A DNA stretch of 64,000 nt, taken from positions 42,057-106,056 of the forward strand of contig CADAER010000002.1 in NCBI GenBank assembly GCA_902787025.1, given 5' to 3'. Shown here piece by piece: positions 35,066-62,030 of the stretch. Positions within the stretch are counted from its first letter, which is position 1. Every line of letters starts with the position of its first letter. The notes under the pieces were generated by a model that did no database searches, was not told where the DNA came from, and saw nothing but the letters and a program-made list of their open reading frames with translations. The stretch comes from Oscillospiraceae bacterium (lineage in GTDB: Bacteria; Bacillota; Clostridia; Oscillospirales; Acutalibacteraceae). The position numbers and the translations under genes are program-made.

Positions 35066-37030
35066 TCAAGGCAGCATACTCATATATTCCTCTTCGGATA
35101 TTATCGGAATCCCGAGTTCCTTCGCCTTCTTGTTTTTTCCGCTCGTCGAGTTCACGTCGTTGTTGATGAGGTAATCCGTCTTCGCCGAAACGGAGGAAGC
35201 GACCTTGCCGCCGAGCGACTCAATCTCCGCCTTGACCGCGTCCCTGTTCGGGTAGTGATAAACCGCGCCCGTGATTACAAAGGTCTTGCCCGCGAACGGA
35301 GCGTCACCCGCGATCACCGCGTCATCCGAAACATTGAGGCAGCCGAGCAGGTCGTCGAACTCCGCCCTGTTTTCGTTCATCCACGAAATGATATTGTCGG
35401 AAACTATGTCGCCTATGCCGTCGATTTCCGCGAACGAGCCGCCGTTTTCAACCGTCTCAATGAATTTTTCAAGCGCGTTCTCTCCGAAATAACCCGAAAT
35501 GAGCTTGCCCGTGTTTTTGCCGACATTCGGAATTCCGAGCGAGCCGATGAACGCCGAAAAAGTGACGTTTCTCGAAACATTCACAGCGTCGATAATGTTG
35601 GCGTAAGCCTTTTCGCCGAAGCCTTCCAGCGAGGTTATCTCATCTCTGAAACGCTCAAGACGGTAAATGTCCGCGAGGGTTTTCACGAAGCCCGCGTCAA
35701 CGAATTTTTCAAGCGTCGCCTCGCTGAGTCCGATTATATTCATCGAATCCCTCTCGCAGAAATGGGCGAATTTACCCACATTTTTCGCGGGGCAGGCGGG
35801 ATTGGAACAGTAGAGCGTCTTTATACCGTCGTTGTCTTTTATAACCGTTTCCCCTCCGCAAAGAGGACACTCGCTGGGAATGACCGTCTCGCCCGTTGAC
35901 TCAACGGTTTTCGCTATCTGCGGAATTATCATGTTCGCTTTATAGACCTCGACTTTCGAACCGATGCCGAGCCTGAGCGACTGCGCCACGCTCACATTGT
36001 GAACGGACGCCCTCGACACCTCCGTTCCCTCCAGCTCAACCGTGTCGAAAATCGCGACGGGATTGAGAAGACCCGTCCTCGACGGCGACCACTCAATTTC
36101 GCGGATTGTCGTTATTTCCGTCGCGTCCTCCCATTTGAACGCCATGCCGTTTCGCGGGAATTTGCCCGTCGAGCCGAGCTGTTTTCCGTATTTTATATCG
36201 TCAAGCACGAAGACGAGACCGTCTGAGGGGAAGTCGTTTGACGGCAGCTTCGCCTTGTATTCCTCTATTTTTTCAGCCGCGTTCTCCCGTGTCACAACGC
36301 AGTGCTCAACGACCTCAAAGCCCGATTTCTCAAGGTAACTGAGGTTCTTCGCGAGGCTGTTTTCCGCGTTCACCTCTTCGTTGTCGGTGAAAACAAGGTC
36401 AAACGCGAAAACGTGAATCTCGCGCTCCCTTGACTCCCTGCTGTCGAGCATCCGCACGGTTGACGACGCGAGATTTCTCGGGTTCTTGTATTTCGCCTCC
36501 GTCTCGGGAACAAGCGAGTTTATTCTCTCAAACTCGCTGAATTTCATAAGCGCCTCTCCGCGCACAATCAGCTTGCCTTTATACTGCACCGCGTGGGGCA
36601 GACCTTTGAAATAAACGGCGTTGTGCGTAACGTCCTCGCCCGTCTCGCCGTCTCCGCGCGAGCAGACAGAAACAAGCCGTCCGTCCTGATAGGTAGCGAC
36701 AACCGTAAGGCCGTCGCACTTCCAGCTTAAAACGGCGCTCTTGTCGCCGAGCCAGCTTTCGATTTCGGCTGCCGATTTCGTTTTGTTGAGCGAAAGAGCC
36801 GGATATTCGTGCTTTATCTTTCTGAGCTTCGATACCGTCTGCTCGGTAAAAACCCTCTGCGTCGGGCTGTCCTCATAAACCGTTCCCGTCTCCTTTTCGA
36901 GGGCGAGCAGCTCATCGTAAAGCGCGTCATATTCAAAGTTTGAGATTATCTCCTCATTTCGCGAATAGTAGGAGTCCGCCGCCTTGTTGAGCGTGCGGAT
37001 AAGTTCTCTCATTCTTTCGTCTTTTGTCAT
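35066..37030 (-). CDS. ligA: NAD-dependent DNA ligase
   Basis: About 654 residues, full LigA layout. The adenylation domain has the active Lys in SWKCDGLTVVA and DSPTQRV upstream. An OB fold is followed by a four-Cys zinc finger (CPLCGG...CSNPACPAKN), helix-hairpin-helix repeats and a C-terminal BRCT domain (FAGKTFVITGAV). It seals nicks in replication and repair. The third possible start (ATG at 37030) is chosen because AAGGTGATG lies right before it; GTG 37039 and ATG 37036 overlap that site. Essential in most bacteria. Confidence 0.95.
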   Translation of the reverse strand: MTKDERMRELIRTLNKAADSYYSRNEEIISNFEYDALYDELLALEKETGTVYEDSPTQRVFTEQTVSKLRKIKHEYPALSLNKTKSAAEIESWLGDKSAVLSWKCDGLTVVATYQDGRLVSVCSRGDGETGEDVTHNAVYFKGLPHAVQYKGKLIVRGEALMKFSEFERINSLVPETEAKYKNPRNLASSTVRMLDSRESREREIHVFAFDLVFTDNEEVNAENSLAKNLSYLEKSGFEVVEHCVVTRENAAEKIEEYKAKLPSNDFPSDGLVFVLDDIKYGKQLGSTGKFPRNGMAFKWEDATEITTIREIEWSPSRTGLLNPVAIFDTVELEGTEVSRASVHNVSVAQSLRLGIGSKVEVYKANMIIPQIAKTVESTGETVIPSECPLCGGETVIKDNDGIKTLYCSNPACPAKNVGKFAHFCERDSMNIIGLSEATLEKFVDAGFVKTLADIYRLERFRDEITSLEGFGEKAYANIIDAVNVSRNVTFSAFIGSLGIPNVGKNTGKLISGYFGENALEKFIETVENGGSFAEIDGIGDIVSDNIISWMNENRAEFDDLLGCLNVSDDAVIAGDAPFAGKTFVITGAVYHYPNRDAVKAEIESLGGKVASSVSAKTDYLINNDVNSTSGKNKKAKELGIPIISEEEYMSMLP

Positions 37031-37116
37031 TTTCATCACCTTATAGATTTTACTCCAAATAAACCCCTTTTGTCAATTTTATCCACCCGCCAAACCCACT
37101 CCTCCGCTGTACGCAG

Positions 37117-37253
37117 GGAACGCGGTTCCGCGTTCCATATACAAAAGCTGACCGCAGGTCCCTTAACATTTTGCCCCGCAAAATATATCGCGCCGTTTAC
37201 GGCATATCGCGTTCACTGAACATATAGAACGCCGCAGGCGTATCTCGCGCGGG
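37117..37253. repeat. 137-bp repeat family B, left copy
   Basis: Begins with the palindrome GGAACGCGGTTCCGCGTTCC and contains several small hairpins (ATTTTGCCCCGCAAAAT, GACCGCAGGTC). It matches 38442-38578 along its whole length with about ten differences by eye and no gaps, in the same direction. The two copies bracket the hemolysin III gene. A truncated relative is at about 6460-6510. The stretch 37031-37116 and 37254-37341 holds no gene. Confidence 0.85.
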
Positions 37254-37341
37254 CAAAGCCCGCCCACAGCCCCGCCAACCCCCGATTCCACTCCCGGTAG
37301 AGCCGTTTCCCGAACAGTAGAGTCAAAACCGCAAGAGTAGG

Positions 37342-37370
37342 TTTACTTTTTCCGCGCCCGCAGGTAGAAT
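37342..37370 (+). promoter_or_regulatory. Promoter of the hemolysin III gene
   Basis: TTTACT (37342-37347), 17-base spacer, TAGAAT (37365-37370). Confidence 0.6.
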
Positions 37371-37411
37371 ATTTCACGAAAAAACAAACTTTGTCAGGGA
37401 GGTGGCTGTTC

Positions 37412-38086
37412 TTGAGAACCCCGCTTAACGAAAGAAAACTGCCCGACTACACAAGGGGCGAGGAAATATTCAATATGGTGTCGCACACGGTCGGCGGCGG
37501 CTTCGGTCTTGTCGCCCTCATTCTGTGCGTGGTTTTCTCCGCGTTACGACGCGACAGAGCCGCTCTCGCGGGCGGTCTCGTTTACGGTATCTCAATGATT
37601 TTTTTATACTCGGTCTCGAGCGTTTATCACGGTCTCACCGCGATAAAGGCGAAAAAGGTTATGCAGGTGCTCGACCACTGCACGATTTACGCGCTGATTT
37701 ACGGCACCTACGCTCCCGTTCTCCTGACGGGGCTTCTCGACAGATATCCCAAGGTCGCGCTGATTATTCTCTGCGTCATCACCGCCGGAACCGCTGTCGG
37801 CGTAACCTTCACCGCCATCGATTTTCACCGCTACCGCGTAATCTCCCACACCTGTTACTTCGTTGTCGGATGGTGCGCGCTTTTCGCCGTGAAATATATC
37901 ATTCTCGCGTTCGGCCTCCCCTTCTTTCTCTGGATTCTCGCGGGCGGCGTCTTCTACACATCGGGTATGATTTTTTACGGTCTCGGCAGAAACAGACGGT
38001 GGTTTCACTGCGTTTTTCACATATTCATCCTGCTCGGCAGCGTTTTCCAGTTCGTCGGCATTTTCACAGGATGTATGATGAAATGA
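37412..38086 (+). CDS. Hemolysin III / PAQR family membrane protein
   Basis: About 224 residues, seven TM helices. Family motifs: YSVSSVYHG, LDHCTIYALIYGTYAP and, near the end, RWFHCVFHIFILLGS; these hold the His/Asp/Ser metal-site residues of the PAQR (CREST) fold. Likely a membrane hydrolase or stress protein; the name hemolysin is historical. TTG start at 37412 with GGGAGG 9 bases upstream; the longer frame from 37391 starts inside the ribosome site. It is flanked by two direct copies of a 137-bp repeat. Confidence 0.9.
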   Translation: MRTPLNERKLPDYTRGEEIFNMVSHTVGGGFGLVALILCVVFSALRRDRAALAGGLVYGISMIFLYSVSSVYHGLTAIKAKKVMQVLDHCTIYALIYGTYAPVLLTGLLDRYPKVALIILCVITAGTAVGVTFTAIDFHRYRVISHTCYFVVGWCALFAVKYIILAFGLPFFLWILAGGVFYTSGMIFYGLGRNRRWFHCVFHIFILLGSVFQFVGIFTGCMMK

Positions 38087-38150
38087 AGATGTCAGATGTC
38101 AGCTACCGGATGTTGGATTGTTGAATTACCGCAATCTCCCCTCACACATA

Positions 38151-38373
38151 ACCTCCTCCTAAGACGGAGGGAGTTTGCTTGCCTCGCCCTTTGGGGCGCG
38201 GGTGTTCAGTGAACACCTCTGCCGTAAGGCAGAAGCGCCGACCGAGCCGGCAGGCGAGACGGTGGCGCCGAAGGCGACGGAGATGGCCAAGCCTTCCCCT
38301 TGAGAGCGCAGGTCTCATCCTTCTTATAGCCTCCCTCATTGAGGGAGGTGGCGCCGAAGGCGACGGAGGGAGT
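38151..38373. repeat. Cluster of intergenic repeats (families A and C)
   Basis: No gene is seen from 38087 to 38680. Within it lie a truncated family A piece (38151-38174), a family C segment with the palindrome GTGTTCAGTGAACAC (about 38202-38216) followed by CTCTGCCGTAAGGCAGA, and a full family A copy at 38327-38373. Family C recurs at the right end of the window (about 63889-63903). Confidence 0.75.
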
Positions 38374-38441
38374 CCGCAAATTTCATAATCAACAACAATT
38401 AAACCAAGAACTCAAAACAACAAACCAACGTAACTCCGTAA

Positions 38442-38578
38442 GGAACGCGGAACCGCGTTCCGCATACAAAAGCCGACCGCAGGTCCCTTAACATTTTGCA
38501 CCGCAAAATATATCGCGCCGTTTACGGCATATCGTGTTCGCTGAACATATCGAACGCCGCAGGCGTATATCGCGCGGG
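38442..38578. repeat. 137-bp repeat family B, right copy
   Basis: Same length and direction as 37117-37253, offset 1325 bases, about 93 percent identical by eye. Begins GGAACGCGGAACCGCGTTCC. The many inner palindromes suggest folded single-strand or RNA forms. Confidence 0.85.
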
Positions 38579-38680
38579 ATGACATCATCCCGCCCTTTTT
38601 ATATTTATCGTTTTAATAAAAGTCTTTATTTTTTTCAAAACATAATGTATAATCAACAGAAAAGCGTCGGAGGTAAACTT

Positions 38681-39070
38681 ATGACACTTGAAGAAGCAAG
38701 AGAATTTTTCGCGGCGGACCGTTTCGCCACATACAAAACGGGCATAACCATCGATGAGGTGGGCGAAAACTACGCTAAATGCTCGTTTACGGCAGGTGAA
38801 AACGATGTCGCTGCTCACGGCGCGGTTATGGGCGGAGCGATATTCACCCTGGCGGATTTCACCTTCGCCGTCTCAACAAACACGCGTGAAAGCCTGACCG
38901 TAACCACCTCCGCGGATATCAATTTCATAAGCGCGCCCAAGGACAGAAAGCTGACGGGCGAGAGCCGCTGCCTCAAAAACGGCAGAAAAGCCTGCTTTTT
39001 TGAAATCACGATTACCGACGGCGCGGACAATCTCGTGGCAACCGCGCTCTTCAACGGAATACATTTATAA
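38681..39070 (+). CDS. PaaI-family hotdog thioesterase
   Basis: 129 residues. The hotdog core HGAVMGGAIFTLADFTFA holds the typical HGG-like loop and the catalytic Asp; the strand SADINFISAP follows. It would release free acid from an acyl- or aryl-acetyl-CoA. ATG at 38681 after CGGAGG; a much longer frame to 38534 reads through repeat DNA and is not real. It precedes iorA by 15 bases, so it is the first gene of the ior operon. A TATAAT at 38648-38653 with a weak TTTATT is the likely promoter. Confidence 0.88.
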   Translation: MTLEEAREFFAADRFATYKTGITIDEVGENYAKCSFTAGENDVAAHGAVMGGAIFTLADFTFAVSTNTRESLTVTTSADINFISAPKDRKLTGESRCLKNGRKACFFEITITDGADNLVATALFNGIHL

Positions 39071-39085
39071 TCAAGAGGTAAACGG

Positions 39086-40879
39086 ATGAAAGAATATGTA
39101 ATGGGCAACGGCGCCATAGCCCTGGGCGCTCTCGCGGCGGGAGTCAATCTTGTCGCGGGCTATCCCGGCACGCCGTCCTCCGAAATAATAGAAACCGTCT
39201 CGAAATATCCGCACGACGGAGTGCATCTCGAGTGGTCGGTAAACGAGAAAGCCGCCCTCGAGGTAGCCGTCGCCGCCGCATACAGCGGAGCGAGAGCCCT
39301 TGTCACCATGAAGCAGATGGGTCTCAACGTCGCCTCAGATCCGCTTATGAGCGTCGCTTATGTCGGCGTCAAAGGCGGTCTTGTAATCGTCAGCGCGGAC
39401 GACCCCGGTCCCATCTCGTCCCAGACGGAGCAGGATACCCGCCGTTACGCGGATTTCTGCCGTATTCCCGTCTTCGACCCGTCCTCTCCAGAAGAGGCAT
39501 ACAAAATGATAGGCGACGCCTTCGAATACTCCGAAAAATACTCTACTCCCGTGCTTTTCAGACCGACCACGAGAGTCTGCCACGCCTACGCCTCAATTGA
39601 TATCCCCGAAAAAACCGCTCCGAAAGAATACGAGGGTTTTATAAAAGATTCGGGCAGGTGGGTTATTTTCCCCCGCCTTTCATACGCGAATCACGGCAAA
39701 ATCGAGGAGCGCAATGTTGAAATCGGTAAGGATTTTTCATCATATTCATTCAATACCGTCGAGGGAAGCGGCGCCAAAGCGGTCGTCGCCTCGGGCGTAA
39801 GCTACGCCTATGTCAGAGAATGTCTCAAAGACCGCGATGATGTCAGACTCATCCGTGTAGCGACGGCTTTTCCGTTCCCCGAAGACTTTATTCTCAACGC
39901 CCTTGACGGCGTGAAGGAAGCCCTCTGCGTCGAGGAACTCAGCCCCTATATCGAGGAGCAGATTCTCAAAACCGCGGGCAGGCATCGCCTTGACATAACG
40001 GTTCACGGCAAGCTTGACGGCAGCGTGCCGCACAACGGCGAAAACAGCGTCGAGCTTTCGGAAAAAATACTCGGAAACTATCTCGGAAACACAGCGAAGG
40101 AGCGTATCGACCTTTCGGGCGCTCCCGCTCTTCCCGCGCGTCCTCCCGTCCTCTGCGCGGGCTGTCCGCACAGAGCTTCGTTCTATGCCGTCAAGCAGGC
40201 GATGAAGGGCAGAAAAGCCTTTTTCTGCGGGGATATCGGCTGCTATACCCTCGGCAACGCGATGCCTCTCGATATGGTCGACACCTGCCTGTGCATGGGC
40301 GCCGGCATAACAATGGCGCAGGGCTTCAGTCACACGGATAAAGACGCCGTCTGCTTCGCTTTCACGGGCGATTCCACATTTTTCGCTTCGGGTATGACGG
40401 GCGTTGTCAACGCGGTTTACAACGAGGCGGATATCATCCTTTGCGTGCTCGACAATTCCACAACAGCGATGACGGGCCACCAGCCCCACCCCGGCACCGG
40501 GCGCAATATGGCGGGCAATATCGTCGAAAAGGTTGATATCGCTAAGGTTCTCGAGGGCGCGGGAGTCAGAAAAATTATCACCGTAAACCCGCTCAATCTC
40601 GAAGAAAGCATAAACGCGGTCAGAGAGTGCGCCGACGAAAAGGGAGTCAAAGCGATAATATTCAAGTCCCCCTGCATAGCGATAACAAAGCCCTCGGGCA
40701 GATGCTCGGTTGACCCTGAAAAATGCGTCAACTGCAAAAAATGCATCCGTGAAATCGGCTGCCCCGCCCTGATTACTCTCGACGGAAATGTCACAATTGA
40801 CGGCAATCTCTGCACGGGCTGCGGACTCTGTTCGCAGATATGCCCGATGAACGCAATCGGAGGTGAAGAGCGTGAATAA
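39086..40879 (+). CDS. iorA: Indolepyruvate ferredoxin oxidoreductase, alpha subunit
   Basis: 597 residues. The pyrimidine-binding domain is at the start (GNGAIALGALAAGVNLVAGYPG), the TPP-binding domain contains CAGCPHRASF and FCGDIGCYTLG, and the C-terminal ferredoxin domain has two 4Fe-4S motifs (CVNCKKC...C and CTGCGLC..CP). It oxidises aryl-pyruvates from Trp, Phe or Tyr to aryl-acetyl-CoA with reduction of ferredoxin. The beta subunit gene overlaps by 8 bases. Complete and of normal length. Confidence 0.96.
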   Translation: MKEYVMGNGAIALGALAAGVNLVAGYPGTPSSEIIETVSKYPHDGVHLEWSVNEKAALEVAVAAAYSGARALVTMKQMGLNVASDPLMSVAYVGVKGGLVIVSADDPGPISSQTEQDTRRYADFCRIPVFDPSSPEEAYKMIGDAFEYSEKYSTPVLFRPTTRVCHAYASIDIPEKTAPKEYEGFIKDSGRWVIFPRLSYANHGKIEERNVEIGKDFSSYSFNTVEGSGAKAVVASGVSYAYVRECLKDRDDVRLIRVATAFPFPEDFILNALDGVKEALCVEELSPYIEEQILKTAGRHRLDITVHGKLDGSVPHNGENSVELSEKILGNYLGNTAKERIDLSGAPALPARPPVLCAGCPHRASFYAVKQAMKGRKAFFCGDIGCYTLGNAMPLDMVDTCLCMGAGITMAQGFSHTDKDAVCFAFTGDSTFFASGMTGVVNAVYNEADIILCVLDNSTTAMTGHQPHPGTGRNMAGNIVEKVDIAKVLEGAGVRKIITVNPLNLEESINAVRECADEKGVKAIIFKSPCIAITKPSGRCSVDPEKCVNCKKCIREIGCPALITLDGNVTIDGNLCTGCGLCSQICPMNAIGGEERE

Positions 40880-41462
40880 AGATATCCTCATCTGCGGCGT
40901 AGGCGGTCAGGGCACCGTGCTCGCATCGAAGATTATCGCCGCGTCGGCAATGCGCGAGGGCAGCGCCGTTCACTCCGCCGAAACAATCGGTATGGCTCAG
41001 CGCGGCGGTCCCGTCACAAGCCATGTCCGCGTAGGCGAAAACGCATTCTCGCCTCTCATCCCCTTCGGAAACGCGGATATCATCCTCGCCTTCGAGCCGG
41101 GCGAAGCCGTGAGAAACCTCAAATATCTGAAAAAAGACGGCGTTGCCGTCGTCAACACAGCCCCCGTAAAGCCCGTTACCGAATCGCTCAATCCCTCGGG
41201 CTATGACGGCAAGGCGGAGGTTGAATACCTCAAAAGCAGATGCTCCTGCATCTTCGTGAATTCCGACGAGGTCTGCAAGCCCTTCGGCTCGTCGAAATTC
41301 TTCAATATCATCATACTTGGCACGGCAGCGGGCTCGGGCAGACTCGGCATAAGCAAGGAAACGATACTTTCGCAGATTGAAAAACTCGTGCCGCCGAAAT
41401 TCATTGAGATAAACAAAAAAGCCTTCCTCGCGGGTTATGAAACCGGCGAAAAGGCCCTGTAA
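40872..41462 (+). CDS. iorB: Indolepyruvate ferredoxin oxidoreductase, beta subunit
   Basis: About 196 residues of the gamma-domain type: ICGVGGQGTVLASKI, GMAQRGGPVTSHVRVG and a C-terminal helix ending in AFLAGYETGEKAL. It forms the enzyme with IorA. GTG start at 40872 with GGAGGTG 6 bases upstream; an in-frame GTG at 40863 is within that site. paaK starts 15 bases downstream. Confidence 0.95.
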   Translation: MNKDILICGVGGQGTVLASKIIAASAMREGSAVHSAETIGMAQRGGPVTSHVRVGENAFSPLIPFGNADIILAFEPGEAVRNLKYLKKDGVAVVNTAPVKPVTESLNPSGYDGKAEVEYLKSRCSCIFVNSDEVCKPFGSSKFFNIIILGTAAGSGRLGISKETILSQIEKLVPPKFIEINKKAFLAGYETGEKAL

Positions 41463-41477
41463 TAAAAGGAGAACGAT

Positions 41478-42719
41478 ATGAGAATAAGCGAAAAACAGCT
41501 CGCCCTCGTTGACAGGCAGATAAAACGCATCATCGAAAGCGGCAACTATTACAGCGAAATCTATAAAAAAGCGGGCATAACGGGCGTTTCGACTCCCGAG
41601 GATTTTGAGAAAATCCCGTTCACAGACAAGGCCGATTTGCGCAACGCATATCCCCTCGGCATACAGGCCGTCCCCGATGAAAAGGTCGTGCGCATCCACT
41701 CGTCCTCGGGAACTACGGGCAAGCCCGTAATCATTCCCTACACCTCGAAGGATGTTGACGACTGGGCTACTATGTTCGCGAGATGCTATGAAATCGCGGG
41801 AATCACCGCGCAGGACAGAATCCAGATTACTCCCGGCTACGGTCTGTGGACCGCGGGCATCGGCTTCCAGGCGGGCTGCGAAAAGCTCGGCGCCATGGCT
41901 ATTCCGATGGGACCGGGCAACACCGAAAAACAGCTTCAGATGATGGTCGATCTTCAGTCAACGGTCATCTGCGCCACTTCCTCCTACGCCCTTCTGCTCG
42001 CGGAGGAAATCAACAAACGCGGTTTAAAGGATAAAATCAAACTCAGAAAGGGCGTAATAGGCTCGGAAAGATGGAGCGACGCCAAACGCAACTATATCGC
42101 GCGCGAGCTCGGAATCGAGCTTTACGACATTTACGGCCTTACCGAAATCTACGGCCCCGGCATAGGCGTCAACTGCCCCGACCAGACGGGTATGCACATC
42201 TTCGACGACTTCCTCTACACCGAGATTATCGACCCGAAAACGGGCGAGGTCCTTCCCGACGGCGAGGAGGGCGAAATAGTCATCACCACCCTTGTCAAGG
42301 AGGGCGCCCCCCTCATCCGTTTCCGCACGCACGATCTGTCGAGAATAATCCCCGGCGAATGCCCCTGCGGCAGAACTTACCCGAGGCTCGACACAATCAA
42401 GGGCAGAAGCGACGATATGTTCAAGGTTCACGGCGTCAATATGTTCCCGAGCCAGGTCGAGGAAATCCTCGGTCAGGTTGACGGCGTTTCAAGCGAATAC
42501 AAAATCGACATTGCCCACGATGAGAACAAGAACAGGGATATCATCATGATTACCGCCGAGGCGGACGGCAGGGTCGATTTCGAAAAAACCGCCGAAACAA
42601 TAAAGAATCTTTTCAAATCAAGGCTAAATGTCACGCCCAATGTCGTCATAGTCTCTCTCAACACCCTTCCGCGTTCCGAAAAGAAAACGCAGAGAGTTTT
42701 CGATCACAGAGGCGACTGA
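41478..42719 (+). CDS. paaK: Phenylacetate-CoA ligase family (AMP-forming aryl-acid:CoA ligase)
   Basis: 413 residues. The P-loop-like SSSGTTGKPVIIPYT, the LYDIYGLTEIYGPG motif, IRFRTHDLSRI and the C-terminal GRSDDMFKVHGVN hinge are those of PaaK. It links phenylacetate, indoleacetate or a similar acid with CoA. Behind iorAB and a thioesterase it may either activate aryl-acetates for use or run backwards to recover energy from the aryl-acetyl-CoA; the sequence does not say which. Last gene of the operon. Confidence 0.93.
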   Translation: MRISEKQLALVDRQIKRIIESGNYYSEIYKKAGITGVSTPEDFEKIPFTDKADLRNAYPLGIQAVPDEKVVRIHSSSGTTGKPVIIPYTSKDVDDWATMFARCYEIAGITAQDRIQITPGYGLWTAGIGFQAGCEKLGAMAIPMGPGNTEKQLQMMVDLQSTVICATSSYALLLAEEINKRGLKDKIKLRKGVIGSERWSDAKRNYIARELGIELYDIYGLTEIYGPGIGVNCPDQTGMHIFDDFLYTEIIDPKTGEVLPDGEEGEIVITTLVKEGAPLIRFRTHDLSRIIPGECPCGRTYPRLDTIKGRSDDMFKVHGVNMFPSQVEEILGQVDGVSSEYKIDIAHDENKNRDIIMITAEADGRVDFEKTAETIKNLFKSRLNVTPNVVIVSLNTLPRSEKKTQRVFDHRGD

Positions 42720-42759
42720 TTACCGCTTATTGCACAAAACAAAACCGTATAATTTGTTG

Positions 42760-42820
42760 AAAATCAACAGTCTTTATTATAATTATTACTTATTTTTATA
42801 AGGACTGTTGATTTTATTTT
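42760..42820 (+). terminator. Long hairpin after paaK (terminator or regulatory inverted repeat)
   Basis: An 18-base stem, 42760-42777 with 42798-42815 (AAAATCAACAGTC... / ...GGACTGTTGATTTT, one G-U pair), around a 20-base AT loop and followed by ATTTTTATTTT. It lies 41 bases after the paaK stop and 94 bases before the next start. Confidence 0.65.
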
Positions 42821-42908
42821 TATTTTATGCAATAATTATCCTGCATATTATGGAATTGTGCCCCTTCGGCACAGCGTTTTTCAGCGCAACCATTAAGGAG
42901 GAAAAGAA

Positions 42909-45900
42909 ATGACAAAATGCAAAAAGGTGATAAGCCTGGTGCTCGCAATCGCTCTGATTGTCGGAACCGTCGCCTGCCTCGGCACCGTTGTCGGTCTTAA
43001 GGCAAAGGCGGAAACCCCCACAATCACGAACCTTGACGGCATCGAAAGAACACCCGGACAGCACCGCGGACTGGATAAGGACGGCAATCCGAGAACCGCT
43101 CCCCTTACGAAGAGCGAGCTCGCGGAACTGTATCCCGCCGGATATTCCTATCTTTCCGGCTGGGCTTATGAGATTGACACATCCGACGGCTACACTCCCA
43201 ACTATGATTTCCAGAATCATATGACAGAGACCGACGGTTATGTCCAACCCGGCGACTATATCGTCCTGCTCATCAAGTTCACAACCAGCTACCCCTATAT
43301 GGGCAACCTTACGGGCTGGTTCACACATACTTATGATTTCTTTGAAAATATCAACACCGACAACGACGGTCTGACCGACCTTACAATCAAACCCCTTAAT
43401 TCATCCAACACCAACCTTGAAACCTACGGCTGTATTATGAACCCTCTTCAGGCTGATGTTCCGGCGGCAACTGCCAAAAACGATTCAAACATCACCAAAT
43501 CCGGCTGGACCGCGGATGAACTCGACACCATCGGCGTAAATGTTTATGTCGGCGGCAGAACAGGTTCCACCATTTACTATCAGAACGAGGATGACCTCTG
43601 GTCACTCGCTATTATGTATAGAGTCAGAACCGAACATCCGGATGCGGAACATACTCCTCTCGAAGACGGTGAAATCGGCTCAATCTTCCTTCCCGCAACC
43701 CAGGATCCGAACAAAGGTATGTTCAAGGTTCCGGTAACCGGTATGACCAAAGCTCAGGCAGCCAAGAAAACAGGCACCCTCGCGGTCAGCGAGAACGGAA
43801 CAAAGGCCGTCAACTCCCACGAAGTTCCCAATTTCGATTATCAGGACTTCGGCGTTACTCTCTGCATAGGCGAGCCGTCCTCGCAGGGCAAGACCTACAC
43901 CGCGACTTTCTATGACGAGGCAGGCGAAAATGTTCTCGGCACAATAACAGACATTCGCGACGGTCAGTCAATAGACGCAATCGAAAGCCCCGCTGACACA
44001 GCGACAACCTTCTTCAAGGGCTGGAGCACCGTAAAGGGCGATGAAAGCGCTATTGTAACATTCCCGCAGACTATTACGGAAAATGTCAAATATTATGCGA
44101 TTTACAGCGAAGCGACTCCCATAACGCTCGTTTTCGGCGACACGGAAGTCAGAGCGTTCAACGGCGATACAATCGAATCCTTCCCCACAGCTCCCGCGAT
44201 TACAGGCAAAGACTTCAAAGGCTGGAGCACAACGGAAGGCGACGCCTCCGCTATTGTAACTCTTCCTTATTCAGTAAATACAACCGAAAGTGAAATCGTT
44301 TTCTATCCCATTTATGAAACCTCGAAATTCACCGTAACCTTCGACATGAACGGCGGCAACGAGAATAATGTCGTTATAAAGAATGTTGAATACGGCAAAG
44401 CCGCTTCGACAATCGTTCCCTCCGGTGATTTCACCAAGACCGGCTTCAACTTCGCAGGCTGGTCGACATCAAATACCGCGACCGCTCCCGATGCGGATCT
44501 CGGTGCAATAACAGAAGACACGACATTCTTCGCCGTCTGGACCGCGAAGGAATACAGCGTCAGACTGTATCTCACAGAAGACGCAGCTGATCCTTACATG
44601 ACCTTTGCTGTTACATACGGAGGAAGCTCTCCCAAGATTTCGGCGAACGATGACAAACCCTCCAAGCAGGCGGGAGCTCCCGAAAACAGCATCTTTGCCG
44701 CATGGGTAAACAAAGCCACCGGCGACACCGTTTCCACAACGGAACTCAGACCCGCGGGCACAGCCAGCGCCTATACAATCGACGGCGACCTTGATGTTTA
44801 CGTCAGATGGACAAGCGTCTCAACCTTCTCCTTCTACATTCCCAGCGTTGAAAACGAGGGCGAATGGGTGCTTGTAGACACATACTCACAGGTAACAGCC
44901 TCCACCTGGACAACAATAAAGACAGCGTTTACCAGCAAGGCAACCGAACTCGGCTACGCTTACCAGACATCAGCAACCACCGCTACCGAAAAACAAAACC
45001 TCGCCAAGTGGGCAACCAACCCCGAAGGCACAGAGGGCATTGTTTCACTCGACGGTAAAAACGCGGACGGCGGCACCGTCGTTACGGTTAACGATCCCGT
45101 TACCAACACAGCGTTCTACATCGTCGGCAAGAGACTTTCGAACACCGATGTTCTCGCAGGCGAAGACGGTCCCTCACTCCTTGATGACACCCAGCGCACA
45201 GGTCAGTATGAGACCAACCCCGTAAATATTTTGCTTGACAAGATAGCCGAGAACGCTCCCGAGGGCAAGGAATTCGCAGGCTACTTCGTTGACGAAAACG
45301 GCAACGAGGTTGAAACCGAGGTTTCCGCGTCCTTCGCGACATTCGCGCTTCCTTACGGTCAGCACACATATTACCCCGCATGGCAGGATATCGTTTACAC
45401 AATAGTATTCAGTATTGACGGCTATGTCGCCACTGCCGATGTCGTTTACGGCGAGACTCTTACCGTAAACAGCGAGGAAATCGTTCCTTACGAATCCTAC
45501 ACAGGCTTCCCGGTAATTCCCGAGAACATTCCCGATATAGACGCCGATCCCTCCAAGAGCGTTGAACTCTATGACAAGACGCTCAAAGACTGGAACAAAG
45601 ACGGTTATATCATCACCGGCTGGGAGATTATCTACGACGGTCAGGCTGTTGCCACACTTGACAACGAGAATCCCTACCCCGTAAATCCCGACCACTCCTA
45701 TGTTCCCAACCTCGGCGAATTCAGCGGCAAGCATGTTATAAACATCAACGCCACAGTCAAACCTCTCTACTACGAAGCAACATTCGACTGCGGCCAGGTC
45801 AAGGCTAAATTCCCGGACGGCTCAACCGTTCAGAAACTCTGGATAGCGACCGGCACAGGCGCGAGCGCCATCAGAGAGATGACAGAAGCAGCATTCGGCG

Positions 45901-53262: not shown

Positions 53263-53826
53263 TTACATTTTCATAAAAGCGGACATCATACATCCGCCCG
53301 CGGCTCCCGCCTCAAGAACGGAGCCGAGATTTTCAGGCGTAATTCCGCCTATCGCGTAAACGGGAAGGTCCGTTTTTCCGCAGATTTCCTTTACAAACGA
53401 AACTCCTCTGCCCTCAAGTCCGGGCTTGCAATCCGTTTCGAATATCGTGCCGAGAACAATCCTTGTCGCGCCCGCGTTTTCCGCTTCACAAACATCCTCT
53501 TCGCCGTGGCACGAAACGCTTATATTCTCAAAACCGCCTAGCCTGTCCTTACTCTCCCGCAGGACGGGAACAGACAGGTGAATGTTTCTGAAACCGTGTT
53601 TTCGCGCGAGGTCAATATGCGAGTGGATATAAAACGGCACTCCGTTTCTCTCGCAGATTCCGCTTATCTTAACGGCAAGCGCCTCATATTCGTTTTCGCT
53701 TAAATCCTTCTCGCGCAGAATGAGCGAGCAGGGCGCAAGCCCGCAGACCTTTTCAATCTGCGCAATAAAATCCCCTTCGCACAGCAGACGGTTCGTTATT
53801 ACAATAAGCTTCGAATAATCAGACAT
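53263..53826 (-). CDS. thiE: Thiamine phosphate synthase (ThiE/TenI family)
   Basis: 187 residues. ThiE fold motifs: LIVITNRLLC, LILREKDLSE, HIDLARKHG, LSVPVLRE, VSCHGEED (the SxH loop), VLGTIFETDCKPG and YAIGGITPENL. It joins HMP-PP to the thiazole phosphate to make thiamine phosphate. It overlaps thiH by 8 bases and so is translated right after it. TenI, the thiazole tautomerase, is a close relative and cannot be fully ruled out, but the operon has no other ThiE. Confidence 0.85.
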   Translation of the reverse strand: MSDYSKLIVITNRLLCEGDFIAQIEKVCGLAPCSLILREKDLSENEYEALAVKISGICERNGVPFYIHSHIDLARKHGFRNIHLSVPVLRESKDRLGGFENISVSCHGEEDVCEAENAGATRIVLGTIFETDCKPGLEGRGVSFVKEICGKTDLPVYAIGGITPENLGSVLEAGAAGGCMMSAFMKM

Positions 53827-55087
53827 AGATATAATCGTTGAGAACGGGCTGAAGACCGCCCCTCTCCATATCCTTATACATACTTTCAATCGAACGGCTG
53901 TCGTTTATCTCAAACTGCTCGTCGCCCGCGTCCTCTTCCTGACTGCCCGTATATTTCTCCTCATGGTCGCCTATGCCCGTCGAAACACCCGCCGAAACCT
54001 TCGTAGCGCAGATTTTCGCTATCCCGTTCCTGAACTGAGCGCTCTCCCTGCTCGAAACGGTTATTCCCGCGAACGGCAGAAAAATTCTGTAAGCGCACAG
54101 CACCTGGCACAATTCCTTTTCGCCTACATCACGGGGATTTATTTTATCGTTGTTGATAATCGGACGAAGCCTCGGGCAGCTCAGACTCAATTCCGCGTGC
54201 GGATAGCGGCGGTTCAAGTGGTAAACATGCAGAGCCGTCGCGAGCGCGTCCTTGCGGAAATCGTCAAGACCGAGCAGCGCGGAAAAACCCGCTCCTCTCA
54301 TGCCCGCCCTGAGCGCTCTTTCCTGCGCGTCAAAACGGTAGGGCCATACCCTCTTGTGTCCCATAAGGTGGAGCGTCTCATATTTTTCCTTGTTGTATGT
54401 CTCCTGAAAAACGGTCACATAGTCAACGCCGCACTCGTGCAGATATTTATATTCATCCGTGTTTACGGGGTAAATCTCAATTCCTATGTTGCGGAAATAC
54501 TTTTTCGCGATTTTCACCGCCTGACCGATATATTCAATGTCGGAATATTTCCTGCTCTCGCCCGTTAGCATAAGAATTTCCTCCATGCCCGTTTCGGCGA
54601 TTACCTTCATCTCGTGCTCGATTTCCTCAAAGCTCAGGCGCTTGCGGCGGATGTTGTTGTAGCAGTTGAAACCGCAGTAAACGCAGTAGTTCTCGCAGTA
54701 GTTCGCGATGTAAATCGGCGTGAAGATATAAACCGTGTTGCCGAAATGCTCCGCGGTTATCCTCTCCGCCTTCCTCGCCATCCGCTCTAAAAACGGAGCC
54801 GCGGCGGGCGAGAGAAGCGCCTTGAAATCCTCAACAGAGCAGGTCTCCCTGCTCAGAGCGCGCTCAACATCCCGCGCTGTGTATGAGTTGTAATCATATC
54901 CGCGGACCGCTTCAAGCACCAGGTCCTTTACATCGGAATCAATAACCTCCATACCCGGCAGATACTCCATAATATCCGTGCGGCTCGAAGGGTCCGTTTC
55001 AAGCGCGTGCTTGCGTTCGAGAGCCGCGGGCGGAAGCTCGTCCGAGTCTATGAAATAAACCTTGTTTTCTTCGTTTACAGGAGTCAA
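53819..55087 (-). CDS. thiH: 2-iminoacetate synthase ThiH (radical SAM)
   Basis: 422 residues. Radical SAM cluster motif CENYCVYC (CxxxCxxC) at about residue 126, followed by GFNCYN. It cleaves tyrosine to dehydroglycine and p-cresol for thiazole synthesis, so it works under anaerobic conditions; aerobic bacteria use ThiO. TTG start with AGAGGTG 9 bases upstream. Gap to thiG is 15 bases. Full length. Confidence 0.95.
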   Translation of the reverse strand: MTPVNEENKVYFIDSDELPPAALERKHALETDPSSRTDIMEYLPGMEVIDSDVKDLVLEAVRGYDYNSYTARDVERALSRETCSVEDFKALLSPAAAPFLERMARKAERITAEHFGNTVYIFTPIYIANYCENYCVYCGFNCYNNIRRKRLSFEEIEHEMKVIAETGMEEILMLTGESRKYSDIEYIGQAVKIAKKYFRNIGIEIYPVNTDEYKYLHECGVDYVTVFQETYNKEKYETLHLMGHKRVWPYRFDAQERALRAGMRGAGFSALLGLDDFRKDALATALHVYHLNRRYPHAELSLSCPRLRPIINNDKINPRDVGEKELCQVLCAYRIFLPFAGITVSSRESAQFRNGIAKICATKVSAGVSTGIGDHEEKYTGSQEEDAGDEQFEINDSRSIESMYKDMERGGLQPVLNDYIYV

Positions 55088-56706: not shown

Positions 56707-56740
56707 GAAAAAAACAGACACACCCGCAGGGTATGCCTGT
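56707..56740 (-). terminator. Terminator of the TPP riboswitch
   Basis: Minus strand ACAGGCATACCC-tgc-GGGTGTGTCTGT, a 12-bp stem with two G-U pairs, followed by seven T residues and then the thiS ribosome site. Confidence 0.88.
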
Positions 56741-56744
56741 ATTG

Positions 56745-56840
56745 CACAAATATCCCTACGTTGGCATTACCCAAATCAGGTTTCGGTTCGAGACAGCTTC
56801 AGTCTCCTCTCAGCCGACTGCCGTCAGCTCACCGTTTGCT
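56745..56840 (-). ncRNA. TPP riboswitch
   Basis: The minus strand carries the conserved thi-box cores: CGGCTGAGAGG near the 5' side and AACCTGATTTGGGTAATGCCAACGTAGGGA in two adjacent parts near the 3' side. A terminator follows. TPP binding should stop transcription of thiSFGHE and probably the GDPD and corA genes behind it. Confidence 0.94.
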
Positions 56841-56861
56841 GTTTAGTTTTTATTACATTAT

Positions 56862-56890: not shown

Positions 56891-57685
56891 TTATATTTTA
56901 TTCATACTGCCCGTTTTATATCCGCCCAAATCAAGCGACACAAAGTCGAAGCCGAGCGATTCAAGAAAACCTCCGGCCTCGTCCGCAATCCCCGCGAGTT
57001 TCTGTATATCGTCCTTCTCCGTCTCAATCCTCGCCAGATTGCCGTGAACCCTCACGCGCACCTGCCAAAAGCCCTTTGAGTGCAGAAAATCCTCCGCCTT
57101 TTCAATCATCGCGAGTTTTTCCTTTGTGATTTCCTCACCGCAGGCAATACGCGTGGCAAGGCAGGCAAACGACGGCTTTCCGCTTGTGGGCAGCTTCATT
57201 TCCTCCGACAGCGCGCGGATTTCCGCCTTCGTAAGTCCCGACTCAAGCAGCGGGCTTAAAACGCCGAGTTCCTTCACCGCTCTCATCCCGGGACGGTAAT
57301 CGCTGACATCGTCCGCGTTCGAGCCTTCCGCGACATTTTCTATGCCTCTTTGCGCCGCCGCGTTTTTTATCCGCGTGAAAATACTTTTCTTGCAGATATA
57401 GCACCTGTCGGGCGGGTTCGCGGAAAAGCCTTCTATTTCAAGCTCGTCCGCTTCAATCACTATCTGCTCTATGCCCTCTTTTTCGCAGAAGCCGACCGAG
57501 CCTTCAAACTCTTTTCCGGGAAACAAGTCCGAGTTCACCGTCACCGCGACCGCCTTTTCGCCGAGAACGTTTTGCGCGGTTTTGAGCAGAAAGGTCGAAT
57601 CCACTCCGAACGAGAACGCGACCGCCACGCTGCCCAGAGAGCGCAGATAATCTTCAAGCGCCCGTTTCTTTTCGTTTATATTCAT
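56891..57685 (-). CDS. larE: Pyridinium-3,5-biscarboxylic acid sulfur transferase LarE
   Basis: 264 residues. PP-loop SFGVDSTFLL binds ATP. CYICKKS and FACLATRI follow; the Cys in ACLATR probably matches the sacrificial Cys that gives its sulfur to the nickel-pincer precursor. Last gene of larB-larC-larE; overlaps larC by 4 bases. Sequence order B-C-E is the usual set. Confidence 0.94.
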   Translation of the reverse strand: MNINEKKRALEDYLRSLGSVAVAFSFGVDSTFLLKTAQNVLGEKAVAVTVNSDLFPGKEFEGSVGFCEKEGIEQIVIEADELEIEGFSANPPDRCYICKKSIFTRIKNAAAQRGIENVAEGSNADDVSDYRPGMRAVKELGVLSPLLESGLTKAEIRALSEEMKLPTSGKPSFACLATRIACGEEITKEKLAMIEKAEDFLHSKGFWQVRVRVHGNLARIETEKDDIQKLAGIADEAGGFLESLGFDFVSLDLGGYKTGSMNKI

Positions 57686-58878
57686 AAGCTTTTGTTTATC
57701 TCTTCAATAACCTGAGTGATGCTCATATCCTTTTCTTCCGCGATTTTCGCCAGGTCGTCATACTCAAACTTCGATTTTTCACAGCCGTAGCCCGAGGATG
57801 TCTTTATCCCCACCTCGCCCAGCGGAGTGTTCACAATCCTCTCCTCACGCTCGAGAGTATATCTTTTCATAACACTTTCGCGCACGCCGAGCGTCGATGT
57901 GTGCTTGAAGATTAATTTCAGAATTCCGTCTTTATCGGCGTTTTTGCACAGAACGTTAAGCACTGTGCCCTGTCTTCCCTTTTTCATAACCGCGGGAACG
58001 CACCAAACATCGAGAGCGCCGTTTTTCATCAGCTGCCCGCAGGCGAAAGCGATTGCCTCCGCGCTCATATCGTCAAGGTTGCAGGCAAGCTCCGTGACCG
58101 TGTCTCCTTCTCCGCTCTCACCGAGCAGCGCTCGCACGCAGTTCGCCCTTTCAAAATCCTTCTTCCCCATGCCGTAACCCGTCTTTTCGGTTTTCATAAG
58201 CGGCATATCGCAAAATTCCTTAACGAAATATTTAAGCAGAGCCGCCCCCGTCGGTGTGCAAAGCTCGCCGTCCGTCCCGTCCGAGTAAGCGGGAATTCCC
58301 TTTAACAATTCCGCTGTTGCGGGCGCGGGAACGGGAAGCACTCCGTGAGCGCATTTCACCGAGCCGCTGCCCGTGTTGACGGGCGTCGCGTAAACCTCCG
58401 CTCCGAGGTCGTTTACCAGCATGCAGACCGCGGCGACATCCGCGACCGCGTCGAGCGAGCCGACCTCGTGAAAGTGTATTTCATCCACCGTTTTTCCGTG
58501 AACCCTGCTCTCCGCCTCTGCTATGCTCTCATAGACGGCAAGAGCGTCCGCCTTGACCTTCTCGGGAGCGTTCAGATCTTCAATTATATGCGAAATCCCG
58601 TGCAGGGTGCTGTGTTCGTGGTGGTGATGCTCATGGTGATGATGTTCGTGTTCGTGATGATGCTCCTCACCCTCTTCGGCGCCGTGAACCTTAACCGAAA
58701 TATGCGTTCCCGTAATACCGCATTTTTCAGTCTTTTCCCTGACATATTCAACTCCCGGTATTCCGAGGGAATTGAGCCTGTCCGTATATTCTTCGGGGCT
58801 GTCCGTCAGTTCAAGAAGAGCCGCCGTGAGCATATCGCCCGCCGCCCCCATCGAACAGTCAAGAAAGATTTTTCTCAT
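57682..58878 (-). CDS. larC: Nickel insertion enzyme LarC of the nickel-pincer cofactor
   Basis: 398 residues in one frame. In several Lactobacillales larC is split by a programmed frameshift into two parts; here it is a single gene. A His-rich metal run (HHHEHEHHHHEHHHHEH type) lies at about 70-92. N-terminal LDCSMGAAGDM and central EIHFHEVGSLDAVADV are typical. CTP-dependent cyclometallase that inserts nickel. Overlaps larB and larE by 4 bases on each side. Confidence 0.95.
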   Translation of the reverse strand: MRKIFLDCSMGAAGDMLTAALLELTDSPEEYTDRLNSLGIPGVEYVREKTEKCGITGTHISVKVHGAEEGEEHHHEHEHHHHEHHHHEHSTLHGISHIIEDLNAPEKVKADALAVYESIAEAESRVHGKTVDEIHFHEVGSLDAVADVAAVCMLVNDLGAEVYATPVNTGSGSVKCAHGVLPVPAPATAELLKGIPAYSDGTDGELCTPTGAALLKYFVKEFCDMPLMKTEKTGYGMGKKDFERANCVRALLGESGEGDTVTELACNLDDMSAEAIAFACGQLMKNGALDVWCVPAVMKKGRQGTVLNVLCKNADKDGILKLIFKHTSTLGVRESVMKRYTLEREERIVNTPLGEVGIKTSSGYGCEKSKFEYDDLAKIAEEKDMSITQVIEEINKSL

Positions 58879-60647: not shown

Positions 60648-62030
60648 TCAGTCTATATTGTCAAGAATTTCCTTAAGCGTCATATCGGGATTCGCACAGC
60701 CCATTACGAGAGCCTTGACCGTGTTGTCGTGAAGGCGGTCAATGTCGGCTGTCGAAATCTGATTTGTCCTGTGCAGGTAGGCAAAACGCAGGCCGCCCGT
60801 TACGGAATCCTTCATCGTGTATGTGTAAAGCGGCATAACGTATCTGCCGAGACTGTAGCTGTGGAATTCGTATTCCCAGCCGTTCATCGTGTCGTCCTCA
60901 AGCGGGAACCACGAGAACATCATCGTCGATGTGCCGTCAACCATACTGTAATTGAAAAGTTCTCTCTCGTTTTCAAGCCAGGTGATGAACGGATAGTTGT
61001 TGTGGCGCATAATCTCCGCCTGAAGGCCTCTCAGCTTCTCAACCGCCTCGTTGAAGGTCAGTTCTTCGGGAAGAATTATTCTCCACGGAAGCGCGGATGC
61101 CATTGTGCCGCCGCAGCGCTTGTCGTTTACCGTCTTACGTCTGTTTGAAAGCACAAGGAAATGCGTGTCGTCGTGACGGTGGTTGATTTTGCTTACGTGC
61201 AGCCTCATACCGAGCTGAATAACACACTCGCCGCTTAAACGGTTCTGCTCCATGTAGTTGAGAATAACCCTGCTGTCCTCAACCGAAAGAGGTCTGCGCG
61301 CGAGTTCCGCTCTGTCGTGAATCGGGTCAAAGCTTCCGCAGGCGCGAAGCTCGGGGTTCTTCTTTTTGATTCTCGCCCTGTCAAGCGGTCCCGAACCCAT
61401 AACGCCGTTCCAGATGGGCTCGCCGTCTTTTTTGAAGTAGTTTACAAAGAAATCCTTGTCCGCCTTAAGCTTTTCCGCGTTATGCTTGTATTCGATTTCC
61501 TTCCTGAGCGTCTCTTTGTAACTGCCGAGAGGTCTGGGCATCTCCCCGCCCGATTCAAGCGCCTCGTAAACGGCGAGAAGGTCCGCAAAGAAGATGAAAA
61601 CCGCGGGAGCGTCCATCGCGAGGTGGATTACATTTATGTAAATACCGTTTCTTCCGTCGGGAGTGTTGAAGAAATAAATGCGGTATGTCTCACCCTTGAA
61701 ACAGCGTATCGGCTTCTGCGCGTCTGCGGTAAGAAAATCGTCCTGCTCCTTCTGCGTCTTGAAAGTATATACGGGGATTTTGCCGATTTCCGCCTTTTCC
61801 TCAAAATACTGTCTGAAACCGCCCTTTTTCTCAAAGCGGAGTCTCATACAGTCGTTGCGCTGCGCTTCGATTTCAAGCGCCTTCTGCATTATATCGAAGT
61901 CAATCTTTCTCTTTAAAACGATGGAGGAGGGAATCTGAATAACCTGCTTGTGGAAAAACGAATATTTAAGCATGAAGTTAATCATTTCCTGCGCAGGTGA
62001 AAATTCGAAATATTCTCTGTTATTGCTCAT
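60648..62030 (-). CDS. Stand-alone condensation-domain (C-domain-like) acyltransferase
   Basis: 460 residues. Fold of NRPS condensation domains and related acyltransferases. The HHxxxDG motif is present as IHLAMDA: the second, catalytic His136 and Asp140 are kept, while the first His and the Gly are replaced. Later C-domain features such as the LSNRRKTVNDKRCGG segment and MMFSWFPLEDD are seen. It would join a carrier-bound acyl group to an amine or hydroxyl. Overlaps the adenylation gene by 4 bases (ATGA). The acceptor is not known. Confidence 0.82.
   Translation of the reverse strand: MSNNREYFEFSPAQEMINFMLKYSFFHKQVIQIPSSIVLKRKIDFDIMQKALEIEAQRNDCMRLRFEKKGGFRQYFEEKAEIGKIPVYTFKTQKEQDDFLTADAQKPIRCFKGETYRIYFFNTPDGRNGIYINVIHLAMDAPAVFIFFADLLAVYEALESGGEMPRPLGSYKETLRKEIEYKHNAEKLKADKDFFVNYFKKDGEPIWNGVMGSGPLDRARIKKKNPELRACGSFDPIHDRAELARRPLSVEDSRVILNYMEQNRLSGECVIQLGMRLHVSKINHRHDDTHFLVLSNRRKTVNDKRCGGTMASALPWRIILPEELTFNEAVEKLRGLQAEIMRHNNYPFITWLENERELFNYSMVDGTSTMMFSWFPLEDDTMNGWEYEFHSYSLGRYVMPLYTYTMKDSVTGGLRFAYLHRTNQISTADIDRLHDNTVKALVMGCANPDMTLKEILDNID

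Follow-up and report, generated by a model that had tools for sequence, protein, structure and literature searches.

The window, a 64,000-nucleotide (nt) stretch of DNA from an Oscillospiraceae bacterium, carries an operon that encodes a hotdog thioesterase, the two subunits of indolepyruvate:ferredoxin oxidoreductase (IOR; genes iorA and iorB) and a PaaK-type ligase (Table 1). An earlier note on this DNA had put the thioesterase 15 bases ahead of iorA and paaK at the end, and these coordinates are borne out, with all four genes on the plus strand; its gene names and the chemistry attached to them, the interconversion of arylpyruvate and arylacetyl-coenzyme A (CoA), hold as annotations predicted from sequence. 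Our comparison with related loci shows that iorA, iorB and paaK are a conserved unit, which in several relatives stands behind tryptophan (Trp) T-box leaders. The main role of the operon in the window is probably salvage of arylacetates into Trp (or phenylalanine, Phe), not the arylacetate production that the note had proposed.

The operon and its conserved core

Table 1 Features of the thioesterase–iorA–iorB–paaK operon in the window
Feature	Coordinates	Strand	Basis
Terminator-like hairpin ahead of operon	38574..38593	+	8 pairs then CCTTTTTATA; consensus match only
TATAAT, likely −10 of operon promoter	38648..38653	+	read from sequence; absent from the promoter scan's list
Hotdog (4HBT) thioesterase, PaaI-like but below PaaI cut-off	38681..39070	+	profile scores and domains
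iorA, IOR alpha subunit; TPP-binding domains and 4Fe-4S domain	39086..40879	+	profile/domain matches
iorB, beta subunit, POR domain	40872..41462	+	domains; GTG start after GGAGG, read from sequence
paaK-type AMP-forming arylacetate-CoA ligase (predicted)	41478..42719	+	domains, nearest structure

The reading frames of iorA and iorB overlap by 8 nt, and iorB is separated from paaK by 15 nt, the same gap as that between the thioesterase gene and iorA. IorA exceeds its NCBIfam cut-off (TIGR03336, 734.5 versus 650.9). IorB has the POR domain PF01558 and scores too low for every IorB model listed (TIGR03334, 170.1 versus a cut-off of 205.8). PaaK likewise falls below the TIGR02155 cut-off (397.8 versus 646.3) and contains AMP-binding and AMP-binding_C_2 domains; its nearest solved structure is 4r1l, named phenylacetate-CoA ligase (E = 1.1e-109). 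The thioesterase passes the general hotdog model TIGR00369 (49.6 versus 36.6) and not the PaaI/PaaD model TIGR02286 for hydroxyphenylacetyl-CoA thioesterase (65.5 versus 118.9). It matches Escherichia coli PaaI structures weakly, at about 28 bits, and has in common with them an LAD segment, which we take to be the site of the catalytic Asp of PaaI. A TATAAT ends 27 nt 5′ of the thioesterase ATG, with the terminator-like hairpin further upstream, and the operon's promoter is therefore likely to lie at the thioesterase. As a −10 element, this TATAAT would give a 5′ untranslated region of about 20 nt, leaving no room for a leader RNA.

Beyond the window, we examined 80 named loci, the best 80 of at least 588 stretches encoding IorA relatives, mostly from rumen and gut metagenome-assembled genomes (MAGs). 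A paaK gene lies 3′ of iorA in 77 of them, a linkage above chance, so that the IOR genes are joined to the gene for a putative arylacetate-activating ligase in these loci as in the window; in the other three (L047, L052 and L094), the contig ends too soon. An iorB open reading frame (ORF) of its own is present in 78 of the 80, the exceptions being L047, which is cut, and L100. Only iorB and paaK are neighbours with a fixed place, three other clusters recurring in 7, 5 and 4 loci. The gene 5′ of iorA, judged by its first residues, is not constant: a gene on the same strand lies within 200 nt in 38 loci and is absent in 38, and in 4 the upstream sequence is too short.

Within a genus set of 45 genomes, in which G000 is the window's own, we distinguished window-like iorA (type A) from a second iorA at about 40% identity (type B). 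Type A occurs in 15 genomes, in three of which (G129, G142 and G018) it is more distant (59–61% identity) and in two of which it is in pieces, being split over contigs in G003 and broken in two in G004. In the latter (G004:C42:25828-27629), the paaK gene that follows is free of internal stops and shares 93% identity with that of the window. Type B is found in 40 genomes, at full length in 36, with a paaK within the stretch in 23 of the 32 type-B loci read. The window's genome also has a second paaK (L226 3304-5010, minus strand, C38), directly followed by a protein with a pair of ACT domains (PF19571), and a type-B iorAB (L133 6730-9492, minus strand, C30) adjoining a Trp-repressor-like protein (PF01371); the 16 kb read around this iorAB contain no paaK.

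T-box leaders before related operons

T-boxes answer to uncharged tRNA, and operons of relatives that carry them should therefore supply the amino acid concerned. The Rfam gathering cut-off for T-boxes, 93 bits, hides most of those found here, so we used permissive Rfam searches, covering the window, 13 genus loci and 15 others, alongside a motif scan of 183 iorA ORFs and R1, our own model of the antiterminator/terminator part of the T-boxes in L103, L047, L095 and L104. Most of the 80 named loci were covered by the motif scan and R1 alone, in which weak T-boxes may be missed, and the G003 locus by the motif scan alone.

A T-box at the gathering cut-off lies directly before the type-A iorA of L103; the motif scan added those of L047, L095 and L104, and permissive Rfam searches confirmed all four at 75–96 bits. 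R1 found further T-boxes in L101 and L106 and, in L110, before a transporter gene upstream of iorA. Their Rfam scores of 81, 55 and 52 bits, respectively, are all below the gathering cut-off, the L110 one being cut at its 5′ end. Searched against the 80 named loci (863,417 bases), R1 gave two matches at E < 0.01, both directly before iorA and both in its training set; its independent finds are those in L101, L106 and L110, those in longer stretches and a leader before trpB2 in the window's own genome. The leaders end 53–177 nt 5′ of iorA in L047, L095, L101 (genome G059), L103 (G067), L104 (G074) and L106 (G051). With the window's left out, a T-box heads the operon in eight of 100 distinct type-A IorA sequences, 98 of which have at least 300 nt upstream. 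The T-box loci that the tree covers lie in two separate places within the fully supported type-A clade that also holds the window. In L095 (1448-5995), leuA and leuB stand behind a Leu T-box and are followed on the same strand by the Trp T-box and iorA.

Seven of the eight operons carry the specifier UGG (Trp), and the eighth has two T-boxes, UGG and UUC (Phe). The UGG stands six bases before the GAG closing stem I in L047, L095, L101, L103, L104 and L106, and the specifier keeps this distance in all ten leaders and in four register controls, the T-boxes of the trp operon of G007, which runs from trpE to trpA (UGG), of trpB in G022 (UGG), of leuA-leuB in L095 (CUG) and of pheS in the genome of the window (UUC). 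Shifting the register by one base would turn the Trp triplets into Gly and the Phe triplet into Ser, a reading ruled out by the trpE, trpB, leuA and pheS T-boxes. Simple folds leave the triplet unpaired in seven of the ten leaders and pair it wholly or partly in L047, L106 and L225. The accessible part of the T-box survey PMC2494555 places specifiers 1–5 nt upstream of GAG and reports that specifier codons agree with the function of verified downstream genes.

Two of these operons have further genes between leader and iorA. In G040 (L249 1356-8300, minus strand), a UGG T-box containing CAAAUGGA is followed on one strand by trpB2, trpP, energy-coupling factor (ECF) genes A, A′ and T, and iorA; iorB and paaK follow in L111. 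The TrpB2-type enzyme matches PRK12391 at 688 bits and the TrpP-type component PF17099 at 35.1 bits (cut-off 27.2); the A and A′ genes are ATPase-like (the one tested matches PF00005), and the T component is of CbiQ type. The link to trpB2 appeared only in a longer fetched stretch, and no trpC was found in G040. This gene train puts together three possible routes to Trp. In G047 (L243), a UGG T-box and then a UUC T-box precede a major facilitator superfamily (MFS) gene, whose best matches, to lactate and to oxalate/formate carriers, are both below cut-off, and then iorA. Rfam supports only the nearer of these two T-boxes (its 3′ part, as L110); the farther one and that of G040 are identified by R1 and reading. 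In G052, a like-type MFS gene lies directly before iorA, and a T-box was not found. Between the tandem Trp and Phe T-boxes of G047, at about 5000-5190 of L243, an inverted repeat, TAGTGTTCTGACC ... GGTCAGAACACTA, surrounds a short stretch that looks like a small mobile insert.

Type-B iorA genes yielded no T-box in the motif scan and R1 (53 distinct sequences, of which 33 have 300 nt or more of upstream DNA); the motif scan gave a weak match 687 nt 5′ of the type-B iorA of L117, which was not borne out by R1. Among 120 loci, a search for trp, ACT or prephenate dehydratase (PDT) genes beside type-A iorA gave a single PDT match, in L083.

Tryptophan supply and the direction of flux

Synthesis of Trp from chorismate seems to be beyond the window's cell, which would have to take up Trp, indole or, on the salvage reading, indoleacetate, because no trpC (PF00218) match and no trpB above cut-off were found in its genome. 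The single long TrpB-like match there is TrpB2, whose gene lies behind a UGG T-box (R1 48 bits, E = 3e-8, plus reading). The assembly is 87.7% complete, and the absence of trpC is common to relatives at 91–98% completeness, with no match in the six other genus type-A genomes tested. Of the genus genomes without type A that were tested, G016, G022 and G054 also lack a trpC match and G007 has one; G022 has trpB without a trpC match, so that trpB may also serve indole salvage. Of the 45 genus genomes, 15 have type-A iorA and 25 have canonical trpB, and none has both.

On the salvage reading, PaaK would spend ATP to convert indoleacetate (or phenylacetate) from the rumen or gut into indoleacetyl-CoA (or phenylacetyl-CoA), from which IorAB, running in reverse, would form indolepyruvate (or phenylpyruvate) with reduced ferredoxin and CO2; an aminotransferase encoded elsewhere would complete Trp (or Phe). 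The thioesterase probably hydrolyses arylacetyl-CoA, or another acyl-CoA, and would free CoA when carboxylation stalls. For the relatives with T-boxes, we consider this reading well supported. We infer the direction of flux, the substrates, the aminotransferase and the extension of the same role to the window, whose own direction is a matter of inference because no T-box was found there and a thioesterase is present.

Several observations weigh against salvage. No T-box was found before the window's operon (36900-43000, permissive Rfam, E up to 10), where control by aromatic amino acid shortage is thus not seen in this form, nor before the 13 of 14 other genus type-A loci searched in the same way, and only the eight of 100 other distinct type-A sequences carry one. 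In an anabolic operon a thioesterase would be a drain on ATP, and it would work against pure salvage. The window's genome encodes PDT, so Phe need not come from phenylacetate. The mutual exclusion of type A and trpB amounts to only four independent contrasts on supported branches, none contrary, with a median p of 0.25 (the tree, of type-B iorA, represents 36 of the 45 genomes and leaves out the type-A genomes G004 and G010). Outside the genus, trpC is present in 8 of 12 type-A genomes versus 15 of 58 without type A. The idea that type A replaces the trp operon everywhere was rejected, as trpC is commoner with type A outside the genus and the genus contrasts are too few. Compensation by type A for a lost PDT was not supported either: PDT is absent from 4 of 15 type-A and 5 of 30 other genus genomes, and in a family set IOR of either type occurs in 8 of 14 genomes without PDT versus 51 of 76 with it. 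Finally, PMC13285125, in its accessible part, cites in vivo evidence for a Bacteroides thetaiotaomicron IOR in the formation of phenylacetate from Phe.

This last evidence favours fermentation, in which arylpyruvates from transaminated aromatic amino acids would be oxidized by IorAB to arylacetyl-CoA with a gain of reduced ferredoxin, and the thioesterase or PaaK in reverse would release the arylacetate. We judge fermentation unlikely. The place of the thioesterase at the head of the operon agrees with it, and a membrane pyrophosphatase gene in the genome makes a pyrophosphate-linked reverse ligase not absurd; set against these are the Trp and Phe T-boxes of the relatives, the absence of a match to the ADP-forming ligase family PF13607 in the window's genome, and the scarcity of the thioesterase, on which the earlier note had based a wasteful last step and which has no place next to iorA in 9 of 15 genus type-A loci and 78 of 80 wider ones. 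The note's net fermentation to arylacetates is contradicted in the relatives, where eight operons have a Trp T-box, one of them also has a Phe T-box and one also includes trpB2 and the gene for a TrpP-type transporter; the window's own operon, before which no T-box was found, might run that way.

Clostridial Hpd arylacetate fermentation similarly has an arylpyruvate:ferredoxin oxidoreductase with CoA; in the accessible part of PMC13285125 it ends in phosphotransacylase and kinase with a gain of ATP, whereas the conserved partner here is an AMP-forming ligase gene. The salvage reading has parallels too: the idea of IOR in reverse has already been published for methanogens, and for Bacteroides it has been proposed. 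As far as the accessible parts of PMC4162585 (citing Porat et al.) and PMC13285125 go, the Methanococcus maripaludis enzyme (MMP0713/0714) has been proposed or shown to contribute to making aromatic amino acids out of aryl acids; our system is like it in this putative use, and unlike it in being bacterial, joined to a PaaK-type ligase gene and, in some relatives, preceded by T-boxes. The accessible part of PMC13285125 also describes an AMP-forming arylacetate-CoA ligase beside the Bacteroides IOR and argues that this points to biosynthesis. The adjoining AMP-forming ligase and the proposed biosynthetic role are shared with the operon described here, which differs in its occurrence in Clostridia, in the T-boxes of some relatives and in the thioesterase of the window's lineage. 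A literature search on T-box, tryptophan and indolepyruvate found no paper, and PMC13285125 was the only one among the matches listed, mostly judged by their listing, to assign a bacterial IOR to aromatic amino acid synthesis. The main texts of PMC2494555 and PMC3766115, in their accessible parts, make no mention of indole, ferredoxin or phenylacetate.

The thioesterase and the role of the module

The thioesterase is beside iorA in 2 of the 80 named loci (L021 and L024) and in 6 of the 15 genus type-A loci (G000, G132, G013, G144, G019 and G021), which rules it out as a constant partner of iorA; with its likely promoter, it is a local addition to iorA-iorB-paaK. Homologues occur in 15 of the 45 genus genomes. 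Of the nine unlinked homologues whose surroundings were read, six adjoin genes for HlyIII and/or a sodium:solute symporter (G004, G007, G010, G012, G131 and, outside the genus, G039) and three have neither neighbour (G016, G038 and G054); HlyIII also lies upstream of the thioesterase in the window and in G144. The iorAB-paaK genes likely came to lie behind a pre-existing thioesterase, and the tree, in which the linked thioesterases form one group in 54% of bootstrap replicates, is too weak as proof. Homologues at or near a sodium:solute symporter gene are seen in L142, L141, L238, L239 and L144, the last outside the genus; this partnership may point to the thioesterase's older role.

Two further explanations concern this gene. 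The thioesterase could be an unrelated housekeeping enzyme that is co-transcribed by position, which is compatible with salvage and which we hold to be possible if doubtful: homologues with other neighbours, in the genus and in G039, fit it, and the linkage kept across six species-level genomes speaks against it. Alternatively, its joining to iorAB-paaK, together with its own promoter, could have made a salvage unit switchable, so that the module works both ways, salvaging when the amino acid is short and releasing arylacetate through the thioesterase when it is plentiful. The gaps of 14–29 nt in the six linked genomes, the HlyIII or symporter neighbours of most unlinked homologues and the likely −10 directly before the thioesterase agree with such a history. 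The thioesterase's substrate is putative, and the grouping in only 54% of bootstrap trees is a further point against; we regard this two-way module as quite improbable.

Other features of the window stand apart from the operon's role. Short repeats, including GGTGGCGCCGAAGGCGACGGAG twice, lie at 38154-38380 between HlyIII and the thioesterase; their pattern recurs in 3 of 254 loci, all copies of that stretch. A thiamine pyrophosphate (TPP) riboswitch lies on the minus strand at 56734-56844 and, further along on that strand, a gene with radical-SAM and BATS domains at 53819-55087. A Condensation-domain protein adjoins an AMP-binding enzyme at 60648-63586 (minus strand), near a nickel insertion protein gene (57682-58878).

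Taking salvage as the probable role, we hold with moderate confidence a broader view: iorAB-paaK of rumen and gut Clostridia would be a dedicated supply of Trp, and in places of Phe, from the indoleacetate and phenylacetate of neighbours. Several lineages would place it under uncharged-tRNA control, and in the window's genus it would take over from the trp operon. The module would consume arylacetates and not produce them, and its thioesterase-fronted form would be a derived release valve. Allison, whose work is cited in PMC7356843, is said to have found in 1965 that rumen bacteria make Phe from phenylacetate, the same net reaction, and many of the named loci come from rumen MAGs. To our knowledge no genes were assigned in that work, and iorAB-paaK are candidate genes for this reported synthesis.

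If this view is correct, these bacteria consume two microbial compounds that signal to the host. The presence of IOR and PaaK is easily taken from annotation as a sign of indoleacetate or phenylacetate production; should the module mostly consume arylacetates, such predictions would point the wrong way for one widespread clade.

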